Source: Flammeovirgaceae bacterium (GTDB taxonomy: Bacteria > Bacteroidota > Bacteroidia > Cytophagales > Cyclobacteriaceae). From it: DNA of 64,000 nt. Numbering within the stretch: the first letter of the stretch is position 1; the number at the start of each line of letters is the position of its first letter. The DNA is taken from the NCBI GenBank assembly GCA_027487845.1, contig JAIYCV010000040.1, positions 1-64,000 of the forward strand. Direction: 5' to 3'. The notes under the pieces are model-generated. The model saw only the letters and a list, made by a program, of their open reading frames with translations. It was not told the origin of the DNA and made no database searches. A program made the translations under genes and the position numbers. Shown here piece after piece: positions 14,075-49,854 of the stretch.

Positions 14075-16462
14075 ATGATCAAAAACTACTTTAAAATTGC
14101 TTTCCGCAATCTCATCAAACAAAAAGGGTATTCGTTTATCAATATTGCAGGACTCGCCACCGGTATGGCGGTTGCCATTTTAATTGGGCTTTGGATCTGG
14201 GACGAACTATCGTACGATAAATATCATAAAAACTATAACCGCATTGCCCAAGTATGGCAACACGTTATCTACAACGGAAATGTTGGTTCGCAAATGGCCA
14301 ACCCTGCTTTAATGGGCGAAGAAATACGGAACAACTTCGGCAGCGATTTTAAATATGTCTTGCAGGCTTCGTGGAACAACACTCATATTTTAACTTCCGG
14401 TGAAAAGAAATTCAACAAAGACGGCTACTATTTTGAGCCACAAGTAACCGAAATGTTGTCTTTGAAAATGATCAAAGGAACAAGGGGTGGCCTAAAAGAA
14501 CCTTATTCCATTTTACTATCGGCCTCCACTGCCAAAGCCTACTTTGGTGAGGTCGATCCAATGAATCAGGTGATTCGTATCGACAATAAATATGACGTGA
14601 AAGTAACGGGTGTTTATGAAGATTTGCCTTACAATACCTTCTTCCGAAATATGAATTATCTCTTGCCCTGGGAACTCTATCTCATCAGTAATGAGTGGAT
14701 CAAGAAAATGGAGAACCCTTGGGGTAGCAACTTTACGCAAACATTTGTGCAGGTGGCTGAAAATGCTGACATGAGCAACGTGTCCGCGAAAATAAAAGAT
14801 GTAAAATTCAATAAACTAAAAGATGAAGGCGATCGGAAATACAGGCCGATTGTTTTTTTGCACCCCATGAGTAAATGGCACCTGTACTCAGAGTTTAAAA
14901 ATGGAAATAACATTGGCGGCCGCATAGAGTTTGTCTGGCTGTTTGGCATCATTGGCGTTTTCGTATTGATGTTGGCCTGTATTAATTTCATGAACTTGAG
15001 CACGGCTCGCTCTGAGAAAAGAGCAAAAGAAGTCGGGATCAGAAAATCAATCGGTTCGGTGCGAGGTCAACTTATATATCAGTTCTTCAGCGAATCGCTG
15101 GTGGTAGCCATTCTTGCCTTTTTTGTTTCGCTTCTATTTGTTCAATTGATGTTGCCCGGGTTTAATCAAGTGGCCGATAAAAAATTGGTGTTGCCATGGC
15201 TTAATCCCATCTTTTGGATTTTAGGAATTAGCTTTAGCTTGCTCACCGGAATAATAGCAGGAAGCTACCCAGCGCTTTACCTTTCATCGTTTAATCCGGT
15301 GCAAGTTTTGAAAGGCACTTTTCGCGTAGGTAGATTCGCCTCGGTGCCGCGCAAAGTTTTAGTGGTGTTACAATTTACTGTTTCCGTTACCTTAATCATC
15401 GGTACAATCATCGTCTTCAACCAAATTCAACACGCAAAAAGCAGACCAATTGGGTACGATCGCAATGGCCTGATAAGTATGTTCATGTCCACAGAAGATA
15501 TTCATAAACATTTCGATGCTGTGCGCAACGAATTAAAAGCGTCTGGTGCTGCCTTGGAAATGACAGAATCGGGAAGCCCAGTAACGCAAGTGTGGAATAC
15601 CAATGGGGGCTTTGATTGGAAAGGTAAAGACCCAAGTCTGGCAGTGGATTTTCCAAACAACGGAGTTACCTATGAGTATGGAAAAACAATTGGATGGCAA
15701 TTTAAAGAGGGCCGCGATTTCTCAAGAGATCACGCAACGGACTCACTGGCCTTTGTTATCAATGAAGCGGCTGCCAAATTTCTTGGCTTCAAGAACACTA
15801 TTGGAGAGACATTGACATGGGAAGGCAAACCCTATACCATTATCGGCATTATTAAAGACATGGTGGTAGAGTCACCCTACGAACCAGCAAGGGCTTCTTT
15901 ATTTCATATTTCAAGAGATGGCGGAAGCGTTATGATCGTGAAGATAAATCCTGAAATGAGTTCGCGAGAAGCATTGTCCAAAATTGAAGGTGTCTTCAAA
16001 AAGTATAACCCCGAAGCTCCCTTTGAATACAAGTTTGTAGATGAAGACTATGCCCGCAAGTTTAACGATGAAGAGCGCATTGGCAAACTAGCCAGCTTCT
16101 TTGCCGCGCTGGCTATCTTTATAAGTTGCTTAGGCATATTTGGCTTGGCGTCATTTGTAGCTGAACAAAAGGCCAAAGAAATTGGAGTTAGAAAAGTATT
16201 GGGCGCATCGGTGTTTACACTGTGGAAAATGCTTTCGCGCGATTTCATATTACTAGTAACTATCTCTCTGTTAATTGCCATCCCTAGCTCCTTCTACTTT
16301 ATGAGCGGCTGGTTGAGCAAGTATGAATACCGAACCGAAATATCGTGGTGGATTTTTGTCGTTGCCGGAATGGGAGCTTTGTTGATCACCTTGGCCACCG
16401 TGAGCTATCAAGCCATTAAAGCTGCATTGGCAAATCCGGTGAATAGTTTGAGGACGGAGTAA
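14075..16462 (+). CDS. ABC transporter permease, FtsX/MacB type
   Basis: This 795-aa membrane protein has the double MacB-PCD/FtsX architecture typical of Bacteroidota. The N-terminal signature NYFKIAFRNLIKQKGYSFIN is followed by a TM helix (about 20-40), a large periplasmic domain, three TM helices around 285-405 with the SEKRAKEVGIRKSIGSVRGQ coupling motif, a second periplasmic domain, and a last block of three helices around 680-785 with the matching EIGVRKVLGAS motif. No ATP-binding subunit lies beside it, so it must pair with one elsewhere. Such permeases act in lipoprotein or peptide export and stress responses; the substrate is unknown. It stands alone, downstream of the hut run. Confidence 0.85.
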   Translation: MIKNYFKIAFRNLIKQKGYSFINIAGLATGMAVAILIGLWIWDELSYDKYHKNYNRIAQVWQHVIYNGNVGSQMANPALMGEEIRNNFGSDFKYVLQASWNNTHILTSGEKKFNKDGYYFEPQVTEMLSLKMIKGTRGGLKEPYSILLSASTAKAYFGEVDPMNQVIRIDNKYDVKVTGVYEDLPYNTFFRNMNYLLPWELYLISNEWIKKMENPWGSNFTQTFVQVAENADMSNVSAKIKDVKFNKLKDEGDRKYRPIVFLHPMSKWHLYSEFKNGNNIGGRIEFVWLFGIIGVFVLMLACINFMNLSTARSEKRAKEVGIRKSIGSVRGQLIYQFFSESLVVAILAFFVSLLFVQLMLPGFNQVADKKLVLPWLNPIFWILGISFSLLTGIIAGSYPALYLSSFNPVQVLKGTFRVGRFASVPRKVLVVLQFTVSVTLIIGTIIVFNQIQHAKSRPIGYDRNGLISMFMSTEDIHKHFDAVRNELKASGAALEMTESGSPVTQVWNTNGGFDWKGKDPSLAVDFPNNGVTYEYGKTIGWQFKEGRDFSRDHATDSLAFVINEAAAKFLGFKNTIGETLTWEGKPYTIIGIIKDMVVESPYEPARASLFHISRDGGSVMIVKINPEMSSREALSKIEGVFKKYNPEAPFEYKFVDEDYARKFNDEERIGKLASFFAALAIFISCLGIFGLASFVAEQKAKEIGVRKVLGASVFTLWKMLSRDFILLVTISLLIAIPSSFYFMSGWLSKYEYRTEISWWIFVVAGMGALLITLATVSYQAIKAALANPVNSLRTE

Positions 16463-24950: not shown

Positions 24951-25586
24951 TCAATGAGGCATCTGTGCTCTTAGAATTTTTTCATACCCCTCTACAACTT
25001 TTCTTAATCCTTCTGTTTCCTTTCTGGGTTCCAACACTACCTCAAACTCTGTGAAGTATGAAATTGCATTGGCCGGAGTTTCAGATAATAGTTGAGTTCT
25101 ATTAGGGAAACTTATCATAAGTCTGCCATTTTCTTCCTGCACTTCAAGCATCGTTTTAAAACGCGCTTGCGAAATTTGTGTAGAGGGCATTGGAATCAAT
25201 GTGATAAGTGGAACATTGACATAATGAGGTTTTACACCCTCTTCGGTATTTGATGCATATTCAAGTTTAACCGTTTTAGGCATTAAAGTTTGTGTATTGA
25301 AGGCCTTCATATTCTTCGAATCGCCTCCAGAGTCGCCACTCAGTGCCCGGCTTGCTTCCTCTAGTGATTTCTTGACATTTGCAAATGAATCGCGCCCGGG
25401 TCGTGGGTTATTGAGGAGATCTTGAGTTGCTTTTAGCGCTGAATCAACAGACTCTTGCATCGCAGCAGCCTGTCCCGAGTCCTCAAAGTATTCACTAAAG
25501 AGATCAATATTGCGCTCCGAAAGTGAATTATTGGCAGCAATAACGGCATCGTGTATTGCTTTAATAAAATCATCAAAACCTATCAT
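24951..25586 (-). CDS. DUF2589-like protein 3
   Basis: This 211-aa protein has a helical N-terminus with a HDAVIAANNSLSERN segment, a low-complexity middle (Asp, Ser, Gly rich) and a C-terminal half with the DUF2589 core pattern: VNVPLITLIPMPSTQISQARFK, beta-rich, matching the LPVLTIIPINSLGV blocks of the two paralogues upstream. No signal peptide or TM is seen. It lies four bases after the zinc-ribbon gene and 27 bases before the GH25 gene in one direction, so these form an operon. The molecular role of DUF2589 is not known to me. Confidence 0.65.
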   Translation of the reverse strand: MIGFDDFIKAIHDAVIAANNSLSERNIDLFSEYFEDSGQAAAMQESVDSALKATQDLLNNPRPGRDSFANVKKSLEEASRALSGDSGGDSKNMKAFNTQTLMPKTVKLEYASNTEEGVKPHYVNVPLITLIPMPSTQISQARFKTMLEVQEENGRLMISFPNRTQLLSETPANAISYFTEFEVVLEPRKETEGLRKVVEGYEKILRAQMPH

Positions 25587-25825: not shown

Positions 25826-26377
25826 TTATTGTTCATTAATTTCGGTTGGGTGAATTGATTTGGAATACAGTTCAATGATATGCGTTATTCCAACTGGCAA
25901 GGGCAGACTACTTGCCTTGATGTTTACCAGTAGGTGAGCATCTTCTGACTGATCATCTTGCGCCCCTGCGTTGGGATAACTTTTTTTCCGAGAACCTATT
26001 ACGCCAGTTAGCACGGCACTGCGTTCATTTTCCTCTTTTCTGGCATAGTGCGATTTGATCTCCAGTGCAAAATCCAATTCCAAACTCTCAACACCAAGAG
26101 AGTTAATTGGGATAATCGTAAGCATGGGCAAATCGAAATAGCCAGTCACGCTTCCTATTTCCGTCTTCTTTGTCTTTACATAGTTTTTTGTAAGTGACAT
26201 TTTGATCATCACTGCGTGATAACCTTTTTCATCGTTAGTGAAACAATGAGTAAGAATAAAATTGGCTTGTTCGCGCGCCATCATACTATTGGCTCTTGCA
26301 GTCGCCACAAGCGGGGCACCAATCATATTATCTATGTTGATCCCCTGAAATTCGTTTGAGAAAGAGTTATTGGCCAT
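25826..26377 (-). CDS. DUF2589-like protein 2
   Basis: This 183-aa protein shares with the next upstream gene both the N-terminal block (INIDNMIGAPLVATARANSM versus LPLDSLIAGPLNASANANAA) and the core block (FDLPMLTIIPINSLGVESLE versus FNLPVLTIIPINSLGVDNVD). It also shares the C-terminal LPLPVGITHIIELYSKSI versus LPIPKGVNTIIEAFANAI. So it is a clear paralogue lacking the Ser-rich insert. It is cytosolic by sequence. A 12-bp inverted repeat lies between it and the upstream gene. The function is unknown. Confidence 0.7.
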   Translation of the reverse strand: MANNSFSNEFQGINIDNMIGAPLVATARANSMMAREQANFILTHCFTNDEKGYHAVMIKMSLTKNYVKTKKTEIGSVTGYFDLPMLTIIPINSLGVESLELDFALEIKSHYARKEENERSAVLTGVIGSRKKSYPNAGAQDDQSEDAHLLVNIKASSLPLPVGITHIIELYSKSIHPTEINEQ

Positions 26378-26429: not shown

Positions 26430-27128
26430 CTATTGTCTTGCACCACCCGAAGCTGGGGCAGCTGGAGCTGGCATGGTGATCGGCTGAATAGCATTAGCAA
26501 ATGCTTCAATAATCGTGTTCACACCTTTTGGAATAGGCAGTTGCCCTGCGTGAACTTTGATTGTGTATTTCGCACTATTGCTTGCTTGATAATGCGTGCT
26601 GTGCGTCTGCGAATCCTTATGATCATAGCTAACACTTCCGTGAACCGTTACCGAAACAGGACCCCAGCCTATTTTCGCTTCAAAGCCACCGTTTCCGCTA
26701 CTGCTATTGGAAGATGATTGCGAAGTGTCATCAGAGGAAGACGATTTCACATTCATTTCAAATTCCACGTCTACATTATCTACCCCTAAGGAGTTGATAG
26801 GGATGATAGTCAAAACAGGAAGGTTAAAAGAGGTAGTGAACTGTTTGATACTCGTTTCTACTGCAGGAGTTGCGGTAGCATCGCCAGGGGTTAAAACCCC
26901 ACGCGTCAGCGTCATCGAGATCATGATGGGATCATAGGTGGTTACGGCACTAGCCCCCGTACCAGTAGTTGTTTTGTTAAAACCATTGTCCAAGATGAAC
27001 TTTGTTTGCGTTAGTGCCATTGCTGCATTAGCGTTCGCTGACGCATTTAATGGACCAGCAATGAGTGAATCCAACGGCAAGCCCGAAAATTGCTGTGCCA
27101 TGGAAAGTAATTGAGGTGAATCTGCCAT
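26430..27128 (-). CDS. DUF2589-like protein 1
   Basis: This 232-aa protein is the first of three DUF2589-like paralogues. It has an Ala/Asn-rich N-terminal helix region, the core block FNLPVLTIIPINSLGVDNVD near residue 100, a Ser-rich linker at about 132-147, a beta-rich GGFEAKIGWGPVSVTVHGSV segment, and the LPIPKGVNTIIEAFANAI block near the end, followed by a Pro/Ala tail. No signal peptide is seen. The family is described as amphipathic, helix-plus-sheet proteins of unknown function. The gene starts about 26 bases after leader element A, so its expression is likely controlled by that leader. Confidence 0.7.
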   Translation of the reverse strand: MADSPQLLSMAQQFSGLPLDSLIAGPLNASANANAAMALTQTKFILDNGFNKTTTGTGASAVTTYDPIMISMTLTRGVLTPGDATATPAVETSIKQFTTSFNLPVLTIIPINSLGVDNVDVEFEMNVKSSSSDDTSQSSSNSSSGNGGFEAKIGWGPVSVTVHGSVSYDHKDSQTHSTHYQASNSAKYTIKVHAGQLPIPKGVNTIIEAFANAIQPITMPAPAAPASGGARQ

Positions 27129-27153
27129 ACTGTTATAAAATAATTAGGTCTTA

Positions 27154-27270
27154 CTCATGAGGCTTTTCAGTTTCCGCCTCCTGCTAAAACATCCTGAACA
27201 GGATCAGGCCGTTTGTTTTGCCATTCCGGATTATGGCAAAGTGGGTTCTGCTCCACTTTGGTTTTAAAAC
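27154..27270 (-). promoter_or_regulatory. repeated leader RNA element, copy A
   Basis: Leader of the DUF2589-1 gene. On the minus strand, 5' to 3', it has a hairpin GTGG-AGCAGAAC-CCAC (27241-27257), a second pairing CCTG with CAGG around 27179-27205, and the conserved end AGGCGGAAACTGAAAAGCCT then CATGAGTAAG. The start codon follows 26 bases later. It aligns block by block with copies C and D. Confidence 0.6.
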
Positions 27271-27502
27271 CTAAGGCTTTACTCGCTAACGAGCCACGTA
27301 GCTGCTGATGTCAGCTTATTGTGCGCTGCATCTAACTGACAATAGAAATTTCTTTTACTTTCTGACCCAGATCCGACTGAGAAGCATTACATGTAGTAAG
27401 AGAAATACATCTCTGCGCAACCTACTACGTTTTGCTCTGTTATGCCTTTTGGACAAATCGGACGAGTTGGTTTTACGTTTGAAATTTTTCTTCTCGGTTT
27501 CC
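27271..27502. other. gap without a clear gene
   Basis: No credible gene is seen. Frames on the minus strand are open but Arg/Lys-rich and low in coding character. The stretch may be the 3' untranslated part of the small gene to the right or decayed sequence. Confidence 0.4.
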
Positions 27503-27709
27503 TTATGAAGTTCTGTATGTGCTAACCGCAAGTAGCTCCTGAAATGTCTTCCACCTGCTTTGCCAATTTCGATTACTATTATATTTTGCCTGGTAATTGG
27601 ATCGAGCACCGAGTTTAGCTACATTAATATCAATGTTCTCTATTATGTCCGACATTACGTGCGCAGAATCCTGACTACATATTAATTGGGCTGTGTGTGT
27701 GCTTGGCAT
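27503..27709 (-). CDS. possible small protein after leader copy B
   Basis: A 68-aa frame begins with ATG 27709, placed 36 bases downstream of the conserved leader core of copy B, the same relation as for the other leader-controlled genes. The N-terminal half (HVMSDIIENIDINVAKLG) looks protein-like; the second half is rich in Asn, Arg and Trp and less convincing. A different frame over 27355-27609 is also open, so the 3' part may be frameshifted. I do not recognise it. It could be a decayed member of the set of tiny proteins in this cluster. Confidence 0.3.
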   Translation of the reverse strand: MPSTHTAQLICSQDSAHVMSDIIENIDINVAKLGARSNYQAKYNSNRNWQSRWKTFQELLAVSTYRTS

Positions 27710-27745
27710 ATTGTACGTTTTATTTTTTTACCTACTCTATAATTT

Positions 27746-27765
27746 AGGCTTTTCGGTTTCCGCCT
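27746..27765 (-). promoter_or_regulatory. repeated leader RNA element, copy B (core only)
   Basis: The minus strand carries AGGCGGAAACCGAAAAGCCT, identical to the consensus end hairpin, then TAGAGTAGG 8-16 bases later as in the other copies. The upstream hairpins of copies A, C and D are not visible, so this copy is shortened or degenerate. Confidence 0.5.
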
Positions 27766-27821
27766 TTTTGTTTTACTGACTTCCTCTCTTCTTTACAAAT
27801 AGGGATAGATAATTGCTCTGT

Positions 27822-27998
27822 TCATTTGACCGTCACCAAAACGTCACACGCGTTTAGAGCTGGCTTTGAAGCGTCCTGCCACGCGTTGTACGCCTGCTGA
27901 ATAGCTGCCTGCTGTGTTGCTGTAACTACCGTTTGTGCATAATCATAGACACCATTGGCTGGTCTTTTTTTACTAATACTTACTCTGAATGTTGCCAT
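27822..27998 (-). CDS. 58-aa protein after leader copy C
   Basis: This 58-aa protein has an N-terminal beta strand (ATFRVSISKKRP), then a helical, Gln/Ala-rich stretch (VVTATQQAAIQQAYNAW) and a C-terminal strand (ACDVLVTVK). No signal peptide is present. The frame is open back to 28052, but those 18 codons are the leader element itself, so ATG 27998 is the start, about 22 bases after the conserved leader core. Nothing in it is recognised. It belongs to the group of tiny leader-controlled genes beside the DUF2589 cluster. Confidence 0.55.
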   Translation of the reverse strand: MATFRVSISKKRPANGVYDYAQTVVTATQQAAIQQAYNAWQDASKPALNACDVLVTVK

Positions 27999-28022
27999 AA
28001 AATTGTTAGTTATATTTCCTAC

Positions 28023-28110
28023 TCTTTTGGCTTTTCGGTTTACGCCTCCCATTGAAATGATTGAATGGGCTCAATCGCATTTTGAGTTCTGCTCAACTTC
28101 TAAGTTTAAA
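28023..28110 (-). promoter_or_regulatory. repeated leader RNA element, copy C
   Basis: Leader of the 58-aa gene. The minus strand has hairpin TTGAGCAGAACTCAA (28082-28096), pairing CCCA with TGGG (28047-28070), and the core GGCGTAAACCGAAAAGCC (28029-28046) then AGAGTAGG. The CCCA/TGGG and TTGA/TCAA stems replace CCTG/CAGG and GTGG/CCAC of copies A and D, which keeps the pairings. Confidence 0.6.
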
Positions 28111-28127
28111 ATACCTAGTGACAAATC

Positions 28128-28361
28128 TTAGATCATGCGGTAGTTGGGCCCCGGATCCGCGGCTTTATTTTGGTTGATATTAAGTCTGTTAACGATCAGT
28201 CTGGCCGCTGGCACCCCATTCGCTACAAGACGATTAATAGAATCAGTTACTGCATCTGCTATCAAATTTGCGCAGTCACCGTGCGTAACCACATTGTTTC
28301 TTTTGTAGTTCTGAGTATAGCCTGTTGGACCATACGTAATTGTTACACTTCCCCAAGGCAT
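28128..28361 (-). CDS. 77-aa protein after leader copy D
   Basis: This 77-aa protein has a beta-like start (PWGSVTITYGPTGYTQNYKR) and a helical middle (CANLIADAVTDSINRLVANG), ending in a polar Asn-rich tail. There is no signal peptide or TM helix. It starts 49 bases after leader copy D, within which a 26-bp segment is duplicated. It is the most upstream gene of the leftward cluster. I do not recognise it. The Gly/Thr/Tyr-rich start and its abundance of Asn would fit a small structural or assembling protein, but that is only an impression. Confidence 0.5.
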   Translation of the reverse strand: MPWGSVTITYGPTGYTQNYKRNNVVTHGDCANLIADAVTDSINRLVANGVPAARLIVNRLNINQNKAADPGPNYRMI

Positions 28362-28363
28362 AA

Positions 28364-28415
28364 TTTGAATCTTTTAACTACCTACTCATTTTGAATCTTT
28401 TAACTACCTACTCAT
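28364..28415. repeat. 26-bp perfect tandem duplication
   Basis: The segment TTTGAATCTTTTAACTACCT plus ACTCAT occurs twice head to tail (28364-28389 and 28390-28415). It duplicates the spacer between leader D and the start of the 77-aa gene and so doubles the conserved GAGTAGG downstream of the leader core. Confidence 0.85.
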
Positions 28416-28503
28416 AAGGCTTTTCGGTTTTCGCCTCCTGTTGATTACTGAACAGGAACAGTTCGTTTATTTTAGTGGGTTCAGCTCCACGTGTCTTTTA
28501 AAA
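28411..28503 (-). promoter_or_regulatory. repeated leader RNA element, copy D
   Basis: Leader of the 77-aa gene. The minus strand has hairpin GTGGAGCTGAACCCAC (28475-28490), the stem CCTG/CAGG (28437-28455), and the core AGGCGAAAACCGAAAAGCCT (28417-28436) then TATGAGTAGG. An AT-rich inverted repeat TATTTTAAAA leads the element, as TTTTAAAAC does in copy A. Confidence 0.6.
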
Positions 28504-28601
28504 TAGTTGGAGAGATCACCTCCGATGCGCATCATCTTTAAGACAAGTCAAAGGTCAGGCAACCCATTCAGCGAAACATCGGCACAACGGGGTATATTGA
28601 G

Positions 28602-28620
28602 AAATACTACTTTTTAGGTA
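28602..28620. promoter_or_regulatory. putative LuxR/NarL-type operator, site 1
   Basis: AAATACTACTTTTTAGGTA. The inner 16 bp, TACTACT-TT-TTAGGTA, have the 7-2-7 layout of two inverted heptamers starting TAC, as in NarL-family sites. An identical copy lies 89 bp to the right. The neighbouring LuxR-type regulator is a candidate ligand. Confidence 0.5.
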
Positions 28621-28690
28621 GAAGGCAGCTCTCTCTCAGTTGATTAGGCGAAGTATTTCAGGGCCTTTAAACCAAAAGAGGTAAAAACGT

Positions 28691-28709
28691 AAATACTACT
28701 TTTTAGGTA
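28691..28709. promoter_or_regulatory. putative LuxR/NarL-type operator, site 2
   Basis: Exact copy of the 19-bp site at 28602, starting 89 bp (about 8.5 helical turns) later and 75 bp before the 127-aa gene. Two exact copies in a 110-bp stretch are unlikely by chance. Confidence 0.5.
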
Positions 28710-28784
28710 TTGCGCTTTTTAAAAAGGCCTCTACTTTTAGGACTTAAAATCTAAAAACTTATTTTTAACTTAAACTTTAAAAAA

Positions 28785-29168
28785 ATGGCAAATCGAATTA
28801 TTGTAGCGACCCTTTATCAAGGTACTTACAAAGAGACCAACCGCAAAGCAGCAACCGCTTACATGCTTAATGTTAGTCCAAGAAATTTTATAGCAAATGG
28901 TGGTGACCAAGTGTTTTTAACTGTTAATTTGGATTCTTCTGTAGCAAGTGGTGGAGGTTCTATATCAGGTAAAATCACATGGAATAACGGGAGTATTAAC
29001 CCTTTTTCGAAAACATTCGCTCTACCCACTGTACTTAACACCCCCACACTTATTGGAATTCTAAAAAAGGTGAAGTCAGAAAGTTCTGATAAAGCCGAAT
29101 ACACCTTGAGCATAACCTATAATGACAATACATACTCTGAAGACCCAGAAATGCAGATTGAGTCTTAA
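28785..29168 (+). CDS. 127-aa protein of unknown function
   Basis: This 127-aa protein is beta-rich and Ser/Thr/Asn-rich, without signal peptide or cysteines. Blocks include NRIIVATLYQGTYKETN at the start, VFLTVNLDSSVASGGGSISG in the middle and AEYTLSITYNDNTYSED at the end, like a small beta-sandwich. It lies 70 bases before the sensor kinase and behind two NarL-like sites, so it may be a target of that two-component pair. No known family is recognised. The lack of a signal peptide with a surface-like composition resembles the neighbouring DUF2589 and tiny proteins. Confidence 0.6.
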   Translation: MANRIIVATLYQGTYKETNRKAATAYMLNVSPRNFIANGGDQVFLTVNLDSSVASGGGSISGKITWNNGSINPFSKTFALPTVLNTPTLIGILKKVKSESSDKAEYTLSITYNDNTYSEDPEMQIES

Positions 29169-29238
29169 AATCTAATTTTTGGACTATATTTTTGCGATGA
29201 TAATTATCGGGTTTACTTTGCCCTGACAAATTTGATAA

Positions 29239-31125
29239 ATGAGATTTGTCTTTTTTCTAGTACCCATGTTTCTTGTAAGAACAATTAGTTTTCAGATAGC
29301 TTTTTTATGTTGTGCCTGCTTGATTGCTAAGGCACAAAACCAAGAACTGGCGGACAGCCTTGCCAAAATTTATCATCAAGGAAAACTTGGGGATTCTGCT
29401 AAATTGGAATTACTCGCAAAGTTATCTTTTAATGAAGTTAGCGACCTTAATTTAGCATTAAAATACTCTGAGGAATTAATTAACCTGGCTAAAAAAAGGG
29501 GTAATAATTTGTACCTACATAAAGGTTATTTTCGCAAAGCAAATAAGAAAAAACTACTAGGCGATCTTGAGCAGGCATTGGAGGCTTATTTGAAAGCCGC
29601 GGATGCGGCCACGAAAGCTGGTTATGATGCGGGTATAGGAAATACCTACAGTGCCATTGCTTCGGTTTATAGGGCAACGAATAACCATAGCAATGCCATG
29701 CTGCATTATTATAAGGCAATTGCAGTCTTGAGCCAAGGCAATAACGCCCTTGGTTTAGCGACTACTTTGTTAAATGCGGGTGAAGCCTTGCGCAAACATA
29801 AGGAGTATGATTCCGCACTACTTTATTTCAAGGAATCAGCCACCTTATTTGAAAAAGCAAATTCATTCACTGGCAAAGCATACAACCTCGGCAATGTAGG
29901 CATGGTGTATGCCAGTTTGGGTAAAAATGAGCTGGCAGAAAGAAATCTAAATGAGGCCATCCAACTGTTGGAAGGATTAAAAGACTACTACCCTATTTGC
30001 TCTTACTTTATTTCCATGGCCGACATTTATCTTGAAAAAGGTGATTTGACCATTGCGCTGAATTACGCAGGCCGCAGCTTAAAGCTGGCTCAGCAACACG
30101 GCCTGAAAGAACAAGCCAGCGAAGCCAGCCTCAAGCTTTCGCAGTTGCACGAGCAAGCTGGTAACACGGAGCAATCGTTAAAATATTACAAAGACCACAT
30201 TGCTTACCGCGATAGTGTGAACAACCTGGAAGTGGTGCAGAAGATTGCTGATCAGCGCACCCTGTTTGAAGTCAGCCTGAAGGAAAAAGAAATTGATCTT
30301 CTTCAGCAAGAGAAGATCATCCACAGGGTCTACATACTGGTTGCGTTTATTCTGCTTTTGTTGGCTGTGGTAGTGTTGCTCTACTTCCGTCAGCGTTTTA
30401 TACATACGCGCCTAATGGCCGACCACCAGCGAAAACTAAATGATGAAAAAATTGAAAACCTGCTAAAAGAACAAGAGGTTAGGGCTATGCAATCGCTGGT
30501 GGTAGGCAGGGAAGAAGAGCGCAAGCGCATTGCACATGACCTACACAACCACCTGGGCAGTTTGCTGGCCACCATCAAGGTGAACCTGAACGGCATACCT
30601 GAACGTAATATGCCCAACTTTAACACCATTACTTCCTTGGTCGATCAGGCATGTTCCGATGTGCGTGGCATGTCGCACTCCCTCAACATGGGAATATCGG
30701 AAGACTTCGGTCTGATCCCTGCCCTTAAAGACTTAGTGGCTCACCTCGGGCAATCGGGTGATCTCGAGGTGGAGTTCAACGCATCTGTGGCGGAATGCCA
30801 ATTAGATTCCGCTTCCGAAATCGCCATTTACCGAATCGTGCAAGAGCTGGTAAGTAACGTACTAAAACATGCCAGTGCTTCCAAGCTATCCATTTTGCTC
30901 ACGTGTTTTGCTGAAGACAACTTGGTAAACATTTTGGTACACGACAACGGCAAAGGGTTTAACCTTCCGGAAAACGGAGAACCTTCTACCGATGGTATGG
31001 GCCTTCATAGCATCCGGCAAATGGTAAAGCAGCAGCAAGGAGAGATCAACTTTGATAGCAACCCTGCCAGTGGCACTACCGTAAATATTGACCTGCCCAT
31101 TTCAAACAGTGTATCCTTACTATGA
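29239..31125 (+). CDS. tetratricopeptide sensor histidine kinase (HisKA_3)
   Basis: This 628-aa sensor has an N-terminal signal/anchor (ending AKAQ), six or more TPR motifs at about residues 35-330 in the periplasm, one TM helix at about 362-384, and a NarX-type kinase. The H-box ERKRIAHDLHNHLGSLLATI carries His near residue 431, and the ATPase domain has EIAIYRIVQELVSNVLKHAS, HDNGKGF and GMGLHSIRQM. Start is ATG 29239; ATG 29266 is also possible. Its stop overlaps the start of the LuxR regulator by four bases. It probably senses an envelope or protein signal through the TPRs. It lies divergent to the DUF2589 cluster. Confidence 0.9.
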   Translation: MRFVFFLVPMFLVRTISFQIAFLCCACLIAKAQNQELADSLAKIYHQGKLGDSAKLELLAKLSFNEVSDLNLALKYSEELINLAKKRGNNLYLHKGYFRKANKKKLLGDLEQALEAYLKAADAATKAGYDAGIGNTYSAIASVYRATNNHSNAMLHYYKAIAVLSQGNNALGLATTLLNAGEALRKHKEYDSALLYFKESATLFEKANSFTGKAYNLGNVGMVYASLGKNELAERNLNEAIQLLEGLKDYYPICSYFISMADIYLEKGDLTIALNYAGRSLKLAQQHGLKEQASEASLKLSQLHEQAGNTEQSLKYYKDHIAYRDSVNNLEVVQKIADQRTLFEVSLKEKEIDLLQQEKIIHRVYILVAFILLLLAVVVLLYFRQRFIHTRLMADHQRKLNDEKIENLLKEQEVRAMQSLVVGREEERKRIAHDLHNHLGSLLATIKVNLNGIPERNMPNFNTITSLVDQACSDVRGMSHSLNMGISEDFGLIPALKDLVAHLGQSGDLEVEFNASVAECQLDSASEIAIYRIVQELVSNVLKHASASKLSILLTCFAEDNLVNILVHDNGKGFNLPENGEPSTDGMGLHSIRQMVKQQQGEINFDSNPASGTTVNIDLPISNSVSLL

Positions 31126-31754
31126 TAAAGGTGCTAATAGTAGATGATCATGCATTGTTTGCCGAGGGCATGAAAGCCATGTTTAAACCCGATGATGACA
31201 TTGAAGTGGTAAGCCACACCACCAATGGGCACGAAGTGGTTTCCCTATTAGAGGCTGCACCAGTGAATGTGATCTTAATGGATATTGACATGCCTCTTAT
31301 TGACGGCATAGCCACGATGGAATTGGTCAGAGCGAAGGGAATTACCACGCCCATCCTCATGCTCACCATGCATCAATCTATGAAACAAATAAAGAAAGCG
31401 TTGGAGAAGGGTGCGCAGGGGTATATCCTCAAAGACGCTAACAAGCCTGAGTTGGTCGAGGCGATAACCACGGTTAGCCAGATGAAAAACTATTTTCATC
31501 CAAAAATAAACGAGCAGATATTCGATTACTTGCGTGGAAAGAGAACCTCAAAAATGAATTCTTCCGAACTATCTGAGCGGGAAATTGAGATCATCCGCTG
31601 TGTTGCTGAAGGGAAAAACAGCAAAGAAATAGCCAACCAACTTTACCTAAGCGAGTTTACAGTAAAAACCCACAGGCGAAACATTATGCATAAGCTGCAT
31701 GTAAAAACCTCGGCCGAGCTGATACATCTGGCTTCGGAGAAAGGAATACTTTAA
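31122..31754 (+). CDS. LuxR/NarL-type response regulator
   Basis: This 210-aa regulator has a receiver domain (VLIVDDHALFAEG, phospho-acceptor Asp54 in ILMDIDMP, and the switch Lys in GYILKDANKP) and a C-terminal LuxR helix-turn-helix (ELSEREIEIIRCVAEGKNSK then LYLSEFTVKTHRRNIMHKL). It is the cognate partner of the overlapping TPR kinase. Phosphorylated dimers of this class bind inverted heptamers starting TAC, which is why the two 16-bp palindromic sites upstream of the 127-aa gene are good candidate targets. Confidence 0.93.
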   Translation: MIKVLIVDDHALFAEGMKAMFKPDDDIEVVSHTTNGHEVVSLLEAAPVNVILMDIDMPLIDGIATMELVRAKGITTPILMLTMHQSMKQIKKALEKGAQGYILKDANKPELVEAITTVSQMKNYFHPKINEQIFDYLRGKRTSKMNSSELSEREIEIIRCVAEGKNSKEIANQLYLSEFTVKTHRRNIMHKLHVKTSAELIHLASEKGIL

Positions 31755-49436: not shown

Positions 49437-49854
49437 TTTTAGATTGGTTTTATTAACTATGTTATTTACTCTTAACGATTTTCAGAACCTCGACCGAGTA
49501 GTTAAGCACTCGGCAAGCTTTTTTTGTCACAAGGATGGTCAGTCCGATTTAACCTAAATTTTGCTTTAAATTGCGCTAGTTTTAGAAAAACCGCGGCATT
49601 GTTGCACTTATAATTCAAAAATAAAAAATACGCCCAACTTCTATTACTTGTGTTTCTAATTTGAAAAGACAACCGTGCCTTATTGAAACAAAACTCGTAT
49701 GGGTTATAATTAAAGTCAACCGTAGCACTACGGTATTTTTAGGTAAGGATAAAGAAAATTAGGGGGTAGCGTGCGTCAATGCGATTGGCTTCTCATCCGA
49801 ACAATCCGCTTTTTTAATGATAACACTGGCTTTGCTAATGCTGCCACCAAGGGT
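49437..49854. other. intergenic region with repeat R3
   Basis: No gene is seen. It holds repeat R3 copy 2 at 49675-49764 and otherwise AT-rich sequence. Confidence 0.6.
49675..49764. repeat. 90-bp repeat R3, copy 2
   Basis: It matches 45945-46034. The palindrome reads ACCGTAGCACTACGGT (49719-49734, one mismatch) and is followed by ATTTTTAGGTAAGG, so the segment TACGGTATTTTTAGGTA again resembles a NarL-like site. It lies beside a LuxR-type regulator gene. Confidence 0.65.

Follow-up and report, generated by a model that had tools for sequence, protein, structure and literature searches.

A Probable Third Architecture in the RNA Clan DUF805/DUF805b, with an Inserted Pseudoknot, in a Flammeovirgaceae Bacterium

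Introduction

A repeated leader RNA was identified on the minus strand of the window, the 64,000-nucleotide stretch of DNA of a Flammeovirgaceae bacterium which was analysed here. Its core is the Rfam family DUF805b (RF02914), and its layout of hairpin, ACGG and core is that of the family DUF805 (RF03081), both of which belong to clan CL00115. The three full-length copies, designated A, C and D, almost certainly represent a third architecture of this clan that is described by neither Rfam model, with an H-type pseudoknot placed between the linker and the core. The structure of the leader, its borders, its position 5' of start codons and its occurrence ahead of unrelated genes are supported by the results. 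Taken jointly, this identity and its reading as a cis element which works at translation initiation and is read by a factor are probably correct. A preliminary description of the same DNA had reported the repeat as a candidate new RNA; it missed the H-type pseudoknot of which its second stem forms one half, the pairing of the GAGTAGG tail with the core loop, and the fact that the core is an Rfam family.

Leader Copies in the Window

All four copies claimed in the preliminary description were found at their positions on the minus strand, each 5' of an open reading frame. Copies A, C and D are full-length with 95-122 nt, and B consists of the 3' core alone. The scores below refer to the Rfam models and to the covariance model R2, which is defined in the next section.

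27148-27269, minus strand: leader copy A, 5' of a DUF2589 gene; R2 84.6 bits, RF02914 21.5 bits (under cut-off)
27241-27256, minus strand: hairpin P1 of copy A, GUGG-AGCAGAAC-CCAC, read from the sequence, with P1 covariation in relatives
27179-27208, minus strand: inserted H-type pseudoknot of copy A (P2a CCUG/CAGG; P2b CCUGU/GCAGG), from the swap test on relatives and MAFFT pair counts
27161-27178, minus strand: core hairpin P3 of copy A, GGC..GCC with loop ACUGAAAA, from the RF02914 alignment
27150-27156, minus strand: tail of copy A, GAGUAAG, in which the tail A pairs with the loop U to give the core pseudoknot P4
27729-27766, minus strand: leader copy B, core-only DUF805b type, 5' of a 68-aa ORF (27503-27709); RF02914 46.3 bits
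28016-28110, minus strand: leader copy C, 5' of a 58-aa ORF (27822-27998); R2 58.6 bits, RF02914 43.1 bits, RF03081 36.3 bits (under cut-off)
28082-28097, minus strand: P1 region of copy C, GUUGAGCAGAACUCAA (stem UUGA/UCAA, one-base register shift), read from the sequence
28047-28075, minus strand: inserted pseudoknot of copy C (P2a AUUG/CAAU; P2b CCCAUU/AAUGGG), from the swap test on relatives
28405-28503, minus strand: leader copy D, 5' of a 77-aa ORF (28128-28361); R2 101.6 bits, RF02914 33.5 bits (slightly under cut-off)
28475-28490, minus strand: P1 of copy D, GUGG-AGCUGAAC-CCAC, read from the sequence
28436-28462, minus strand: inserted pseudoknot of copy D (P2a ACUG/CAGU; P2b UCCUGUU/AACAGGA), from the swap test on relatives
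28407-28413, minus strand: tail of copy D, GAGUAGG, from the RF02914 alignment

From the end of GAGTAGG or GAGTAAG to the ATG, the distance is 21 nt for A, 21 nt for B, 19 nt for C and 45 nt for D (ATGs at 27128, 27709, 27998 and 28361); for copy C, the ATG 3' of the leader was chosen, a longer frame opening at 28052 with an ATG within the leader. The R2 search identified three full-length copies in this genome, all in the cluster at 27148-28503, and two more core-type matches were obtained, with 44.7 bits at C5:50979 and 24.7 bits at C5:55304.

Several further details of the window were recorded. A perfect 26-bp tandem duplication at 28364-28415 takes in the GAGTAGG tail of copy D, and the linker of copy A (27190-27250) contains an additional hairpin, UUGCCAU..AUGGCAA, which is not present in C and D. 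At 49463-49566 on the minus strand, a weak R2 match of 20.6 bits consists of a degenerate core with GAAAAUCG and GAGUAAAU, located 26 nt 5' of the ATG (49436) of a lipoprotein-like ORF that has 259 aa, is rich in glycine at its C-terminus and gave no Pfam family.

Occurrence in Other Genomes

Two covariance models were used. R1 was built from the window copies and two copies of the close relative L041, and holds P1, P2a and P3; R2 was built from 27 hits with a structure consisting of P1 and P3 only. A search with a model of the copies had been suggested in the preliminary description, and R1 indeed recovered relatives in family genomes outside the genus at 53-81 bits, so that chance is ruled out for the repeated leader. 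In the large genome searches with both models, ten candidates were scored per genome. On this basis, 15 of 390 genomes of the family, among them this one and the close relative, contained R1 hits above 50 bits, 26 in all. At E <= 0.01, 71 of the 390 matched, many of them with about 72 nt, by their length shorter DUF805-like forms. With R2, matches were obtained at E <= 0.001 in 53 of 390 genomes of the order, exceeding 60 bits outside the family in 7 genomes from two families, and at E <= 1e-4 in 31 of 395 genomes of the phylum, exceeding 60 bits outside the order in 6.

The number of matches per genome was 0-7 for DUF805b (58 genomes of the genus) and 0-4 for RF03081 (13 genomes). Plasmids searched with copy D gave no match, and viral contigs gave 0 matches to the long pattern. 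Twelve matches to the 16-base P1 pattern were found in viral contigs, one of which yields a 59-nt, 31-bit R2 hit at E <= 0.01; this hit, at 3850-3908 of contig L202, is perhaps a DUF805-type element in a phage.

Relation to the DUF805 and DUF805b Families

All four copies align to RF02914 over model positions 1-35, comprising the core hairpin with its GAAAA loop and the tail, which in A is GAGUAAG. The gathering cut-off of 35.6 is exceeded by B and C; D and A remain below it. A comparison with Rfam had been proposed in the preliminary description. The gathering cut-off of RF03081, 51.1, is reached by none of the three full-length copies, A and D being absent from its matches at E <= 0.001, and the extended elements listed by it for other genomes likewise remain under the cut-off at 33-43 bits.

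Like DUF805, the extended leader has a P1 of the form GUGGAG..CAG..CCAC, an A-rich linker ending in ACGG, a core GGCG..CCGAAAAGCC, a GAGUAGG tail and a place 5' of start codons. However, DUF805 has 68 nt, lacks the P2 pseudoknot and has the core directly after ACGG, and its P1 loop often has 10 nt compared to 8 in the extended form. In A, C and D, a pseudoknot of about 27-30 nt separates the linker from the core, so that the RF03081 layout of a linker joined to the core fails. P1 and the linker ACGR are present in A and D, and copy C has GCG; the AG..GA loop of P1, a trait of RF03081, is also found in A and D, the stem of copy C being shifted in register. DUF805b shares the core and the tail, but with 35 nt it has neither P1 nor P2, and its model draws as unpaired the tail that was found here to covary with the loop. 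By core, tail and place 5' of a start codon, the window copies belong to CL00115.

The claim of the preliminary description that the RNA matched no known class was thus not upheld for the core and the layout, which Rfam covers with DUF805b and DUF805, and an entirely new RNA class is ruled out by these matches; the form with the inserted pseudoknot does lie outside both models. RF02913 was considered as the clan partner and rejected: it is pemK and gave no match, the partner being RF03081. Weak Rfam matches to RalA, GP20-b, RF_site3 and others were discarded with scores far under their own cut-offs. No paper on the DUF805 or DUF805b RNA was found in the literature library searched.

P1 and the Core Pseudoknot

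For stem 1, the preliminary description had proposed covariation between copies. Within the window this was not borne out, TTGA/TCAA of C lying one base off GTGG/CCAC of A and D, but in relatives P1 does covary: 5 of its 5 pairs are changed on both sides, in an alignment fitted to a model containing P1. Together, P1 and P3 are paired in 95.2% of cells, a value reached in 0 of 500 shuffles (69 rows, in an alignment fitted to both helices).

The core is a small pseudoknot, formed by P3 and by P4, a pairing of the loop with the GAGUAGG tail in which the loop XCY pairs with the tail RGX'. Among 145 cores, loop C was combined with tail G in 111 and with tail A in 2, and loop U with tail G in 12 and with tail A in 20 (Fisher p = 2e-14, a value inflated by the relatedness of the sequences). 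The third, outer pair is Watson-Crick in 88 of the 145 versus 38 ± 4.8 after shuffling. These cores remained after exclusion of 62 of 207 core-pattern matches without loop NCY and tail RGN, most of which resemble chance matches of a loose pattern. Copy A itself represents a double change in P4, with loop U and tail A, against the other copies. Exceptions are C opposite A in the two cores mentioned (Dr of L041 and one in L026) and the 12 cores with U-G, and the core of L005 is also without that P4 pair. In L083, at 14482-14612 and 15082-15212, a hairpin is inserted in the GAAAA part of the core loop, which therefore tolerates a side domain.

The Inserted Pseudoknot

The second stem reported in the preliminary description was confirmed, with CCTGTT/AACAGG in D, CCTGT/GCAGG in A and CCCATT/AATGGG in C. 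It is P2b, the pairing of the P2a loop with the bases immediately 5' of the core. Neither R1 nor R2 models P2b; P2a is part of R1, the model that initially recovered the family loci, and absent from R2, with which the alignment was made. In the swap test, the 3' arms were exchanged among sequences. The sample consisted of 69 hits, of which 9 were outside the length filter; the remaining 60, with 3 DUF805-type hits with a misplaced core kept in, were reduced to 43 non-redundant ones. The P2b helix score was 6.96 versus 4.69 ± 0.17 with swapped arms (maximum of 1000 swaps 5.33; n = 43), and that of P2a was 4.57 versus 3.55 ± 0.14 (maximum of 1000 swaps 4.01; n = 43), related sequences being counted in this test as in the covariation test. 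The P2 pseudoknot is thus supported, because arms from the same sequence outscore 1000 arm swaps.

A structure-free MAFFT alignment of the best 26 of 44 hits contained double changes at 4 of 4 P2a and 6 of 6 P2b pairs. In this alignment, 79% of cells were paired for P2a, 85% for P2b and 86% for the whole structure, compared to 33-52% when the structure was slid, with the pairing columns picked from copy A and hence biased toward the unslid version. RNAalifold recovered P2b and P3 unaided, and in 51 of 60 sequences no gap separates the 3' arm of P2b from the core. P2b is weak in L167 and interrupted in L099. The view of the preliminary description that a selected RNA structure with covarying stems is present is therefore firmer than three copies could make it; that this structure regulates the genes behind it is what we infer.

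At copy A, the terminator scan lists a terminator-like stem at P2a, which would fit a transcription attenuator with an intrinsic terminator. However, the U-rich stretch 3' of P2a is not kept in C, D and most relatives, and about 19 nt to the ATG leave little room for a terminator, so that an attenuator is very improbable. With no conserved terminator among the leaders, the intrinsic terminator was rejected.

Placement before Start Codons

By script, 152 cores were sorted into 37 extended, 51 DUF805-type and 64 core-only elements. The clan is modular: it comprises the core alone, P1 with the core, and P1 with P2 and the core, and some hits carry P2 and the core without a clear P1. When the first ATG within 90 nt to open at least 35 codons was taken as the start, the median distance from the GAGUAGG end was 19 nt for extended elements (IQR 18-21, range 9-45; 37 of 37 with an ORF), 21 nt for DUF805-type elements (19-24; 49 of 51) and 22 nt for core-only elements (19-26, range 11-53; 61 of 64).

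The tight median spacing of 19-22 nt in all three architectures would also be expected of a constitutive structure that recruits ribosomes or enhances translation without switching. Shine-Dalgarno pairing is little used in Bacteroidota, which is in line with such a role. The copies are, however, few per genome and located on accessory genes, which suggests specific control; a purely constitutive element is therefore considered unlikely.

Two upstream sequence signals were inspected. The promoter box TAnnTTTG was rejected, with observed and shuffled counts of 0 and 1.0 for the 37 extended, 3 and 1.7 for the 51 DUF805-type and 5 and 1.6 for 63 core-only elements; it is not enriched upstream of extended or DUF805-type elements. 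A motif CTTTGAnTTRTC is present in a subset, picked by eye from those very sequences. The core-only elements of L017, L036, L037, L039 and L040 precede short ORFs, several with GG motifs which we take to resemble those of double-glycine peptide leaders, and four of these five have the core variant CGCGGAURCCGAAAAGCG.

Target Genes

In the window, a Pfam family was identified for the gene behind copy A and for further genes downstream of it:

26430-27128, minus strand: DUF2589 gene behind copy A (Pfam PF11655)
25826-26377 and 24951-25586, minus strand: further DUF2589 genes downstream (Pfam PF11655)

The ORFs behind B (68 aa), C (58 aa) and D (77 aa) gave no Pfam family above the cut-off. In total, 54 target proteins were scanned, 49 behind extended leaders and 5 behind shorter or unclear elements. 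The 49 were drawn from 57 proteins behind P2-bearing hits by exclusion of five near-duplicates and of L089:14467, L094:2365 and L085:16838. Pfam assigned PixA to 5 of the 54, DUF2589 to 2, DUF1843 to 2, and DUF1842, tyrosinase, phage collar and B_lectin to 1 each, among others. A putidacin-like lectin bacteriocin and a MakCD-type protein were identified in addition with NCBIfam, and the majority received no family. Behind the shorter leaders, one protein is a vWA protein and another is PixA-like by its letters. DUF805-type leaders were identified before a rhodopsin gene (PF01036) in L126 and before a cold-shock-domain protein in L115. By a crude hydrophobicity test, an N-terminal hydrophobic segment is present in 6 of 36 extended targets versus 42 of 107 for the other two forms (p = 0.014).

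These targets bear on the question whether the leader is a metabolite or ion riboswitch, with P1, P2 and the core as a small-molecule aptamer and the core tail as the expression platform. Compact pseudoknots, conserved loop letters and variable helices are aptamer-like, and the core-only form, with 35 nt, is similar in size to the preQ1-I aptamer. The preQ1-I riboswitch is also alike in its working, as a very small H-type pseudoknot shortly 5' of a start codon. However, no sequence relation is claimed, and between 26900 and 28800 no riboswitch family was matched by Rfam at E <= 10. The targets (PixA, DUF1842/1843, tyrosinase, lectin-like and phage-collar-like proteins, rhodopsin, cold-shock protein) are unrelated, with no metabolic pathway standing out, and a riboswitch is regarded as rather unlikely.

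Leaders were also found ahead of DUF1843 ORFs and their neighbours at 1615-5000 of L160 and 6700-9800 of L162, with one strong and one weak leader each. In L160, a pair of DUF1843 ORFs, the latter of which is preceded by a weak hit of 26.4 bits, is followed by a radical SAM/SPASM enzyme near TIGR03913 (525.9 bits against a cut-off of 591.75). As the leaders of L160 and L162 adjoin such an enzyme (tested in L160), a peptide-maturation cluster is possible. In Chromobacterium, DUF1842/DUF1843 genes and such a maturase are named among the genes analysed for quorum sensing (PMC12114271), and for Burkholderia thailandensis, DUF1842/1843 genes are listed as up in a comparison of exponential to stationary phase (PMC12322963).

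The Neighbouring NarL-Type Regulator

Beside the leader cluster, a divergent two-component system is encoded:

29239-31754, plus strand: TPR histidine kinase and NarL-type response regulator

A GerE (NarL-type) gene was identified within 7.5 kb of at least 12 of 18 leader clusters, compared to 0.86 expected from gene density, the cut-off of 7.5 kb having been chosen after the distances were seen; at 5 kb, the number was at least 9 of 18. The sample comprised the clusters of hits exceeding 50 bits in the 15 genomes of the family that contain them, several of these genomes being congeneric and some with short contigs. At least 9 of 11 clusters in eight genomes, picked after a motif scan had revealed regulators in several of them, had such a neighbour, and 3 of 7 in the other seven genomes. 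Tentatively, transcription of many clusters in this family may be set by the adjacent NarL-type system, and the RNA would then act as a second gate. Against this, up to 6 of the 18 clusters are without a NarL-type gene near, and the motif scan found no NarL-type regulator in the f26 loci.

Exchange of Targets

In the one genome pair compared, the window and L041 are homologous over leader D except for its last 4 nt, and homology starts again about 10 nt ahead of leader A. In the interval, the window has three ORFs with leaders B and C, and L041 has one different 74-aa ORF; the DUF2589 protein of L041 is 99% identical to that of the window. Between genera and families, BLASTN often covers the leader and little else (for example, window and L169, or L083 and L101).

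That the genes between D and A are wholly different in so close a relative, and that the leaders are more alike than their surroundings, could point to an attC- or REP-like repeat, of a mobile or recombination kind, instead of a regulator. The elements tabulated, however, lie in a single orientation upstream of an ORF at similar spacing, compensatory changes occur in both pseudoknots, and no copy is closely flanked by the sole inverted pair reported for 26500-29500. A mobile repeat is therefore extremely improbable; exchange by homologous recombination may occur as a side effect.

Proposed Mode of Action

The spacing, which places the P3/P4 pseudoknot at the upstream edge of the initiating ribosome, the lack of a conserved terminator and the diverse targets speak for control of translation initiation through a common factor and against metabolite sensing specific to each gene. 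For the leader as such, we infer a role at translation initiation with about even chances. The P3/P4 core would sit just 5' of the initiating ribosome, and the forming or melting of P4 would set the use of the start codon. P1 and P2 would form a docking or sensing module for a shared factor, either a protein or a general signal, since the targets have no visible common pathway. For switching, counterpoints are that the fixed spacing would also fit a constitutive element and that no alternative fold masking the start codon was noticed in the structures considered.

Going further, the DUF805 clan might be a modular, IRES-like ribosome-docking RNA in which the core pseudoknot, about 19 nt from the AUG, replaces the Shine-Dalgarno site and P1 and P2 make its use conditional, a proposal that we consider doubtful.

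For the two Rfam families, the analysis adds a modular architecture, two covariation-backed pseudoknots, a narrow range of spacing before the start codon, a list of targets and, in this family of bacteria, an often adjacent regulator. The present Rfam models miss a subfamily, all three full-length copies of the window falling short of the DUF805 cut-off. If the IRES-like reading were true, the clan would be a portable RNA switch of the Bacteroidota, by which accessory genes are drawn into a programme under control of density or stage.
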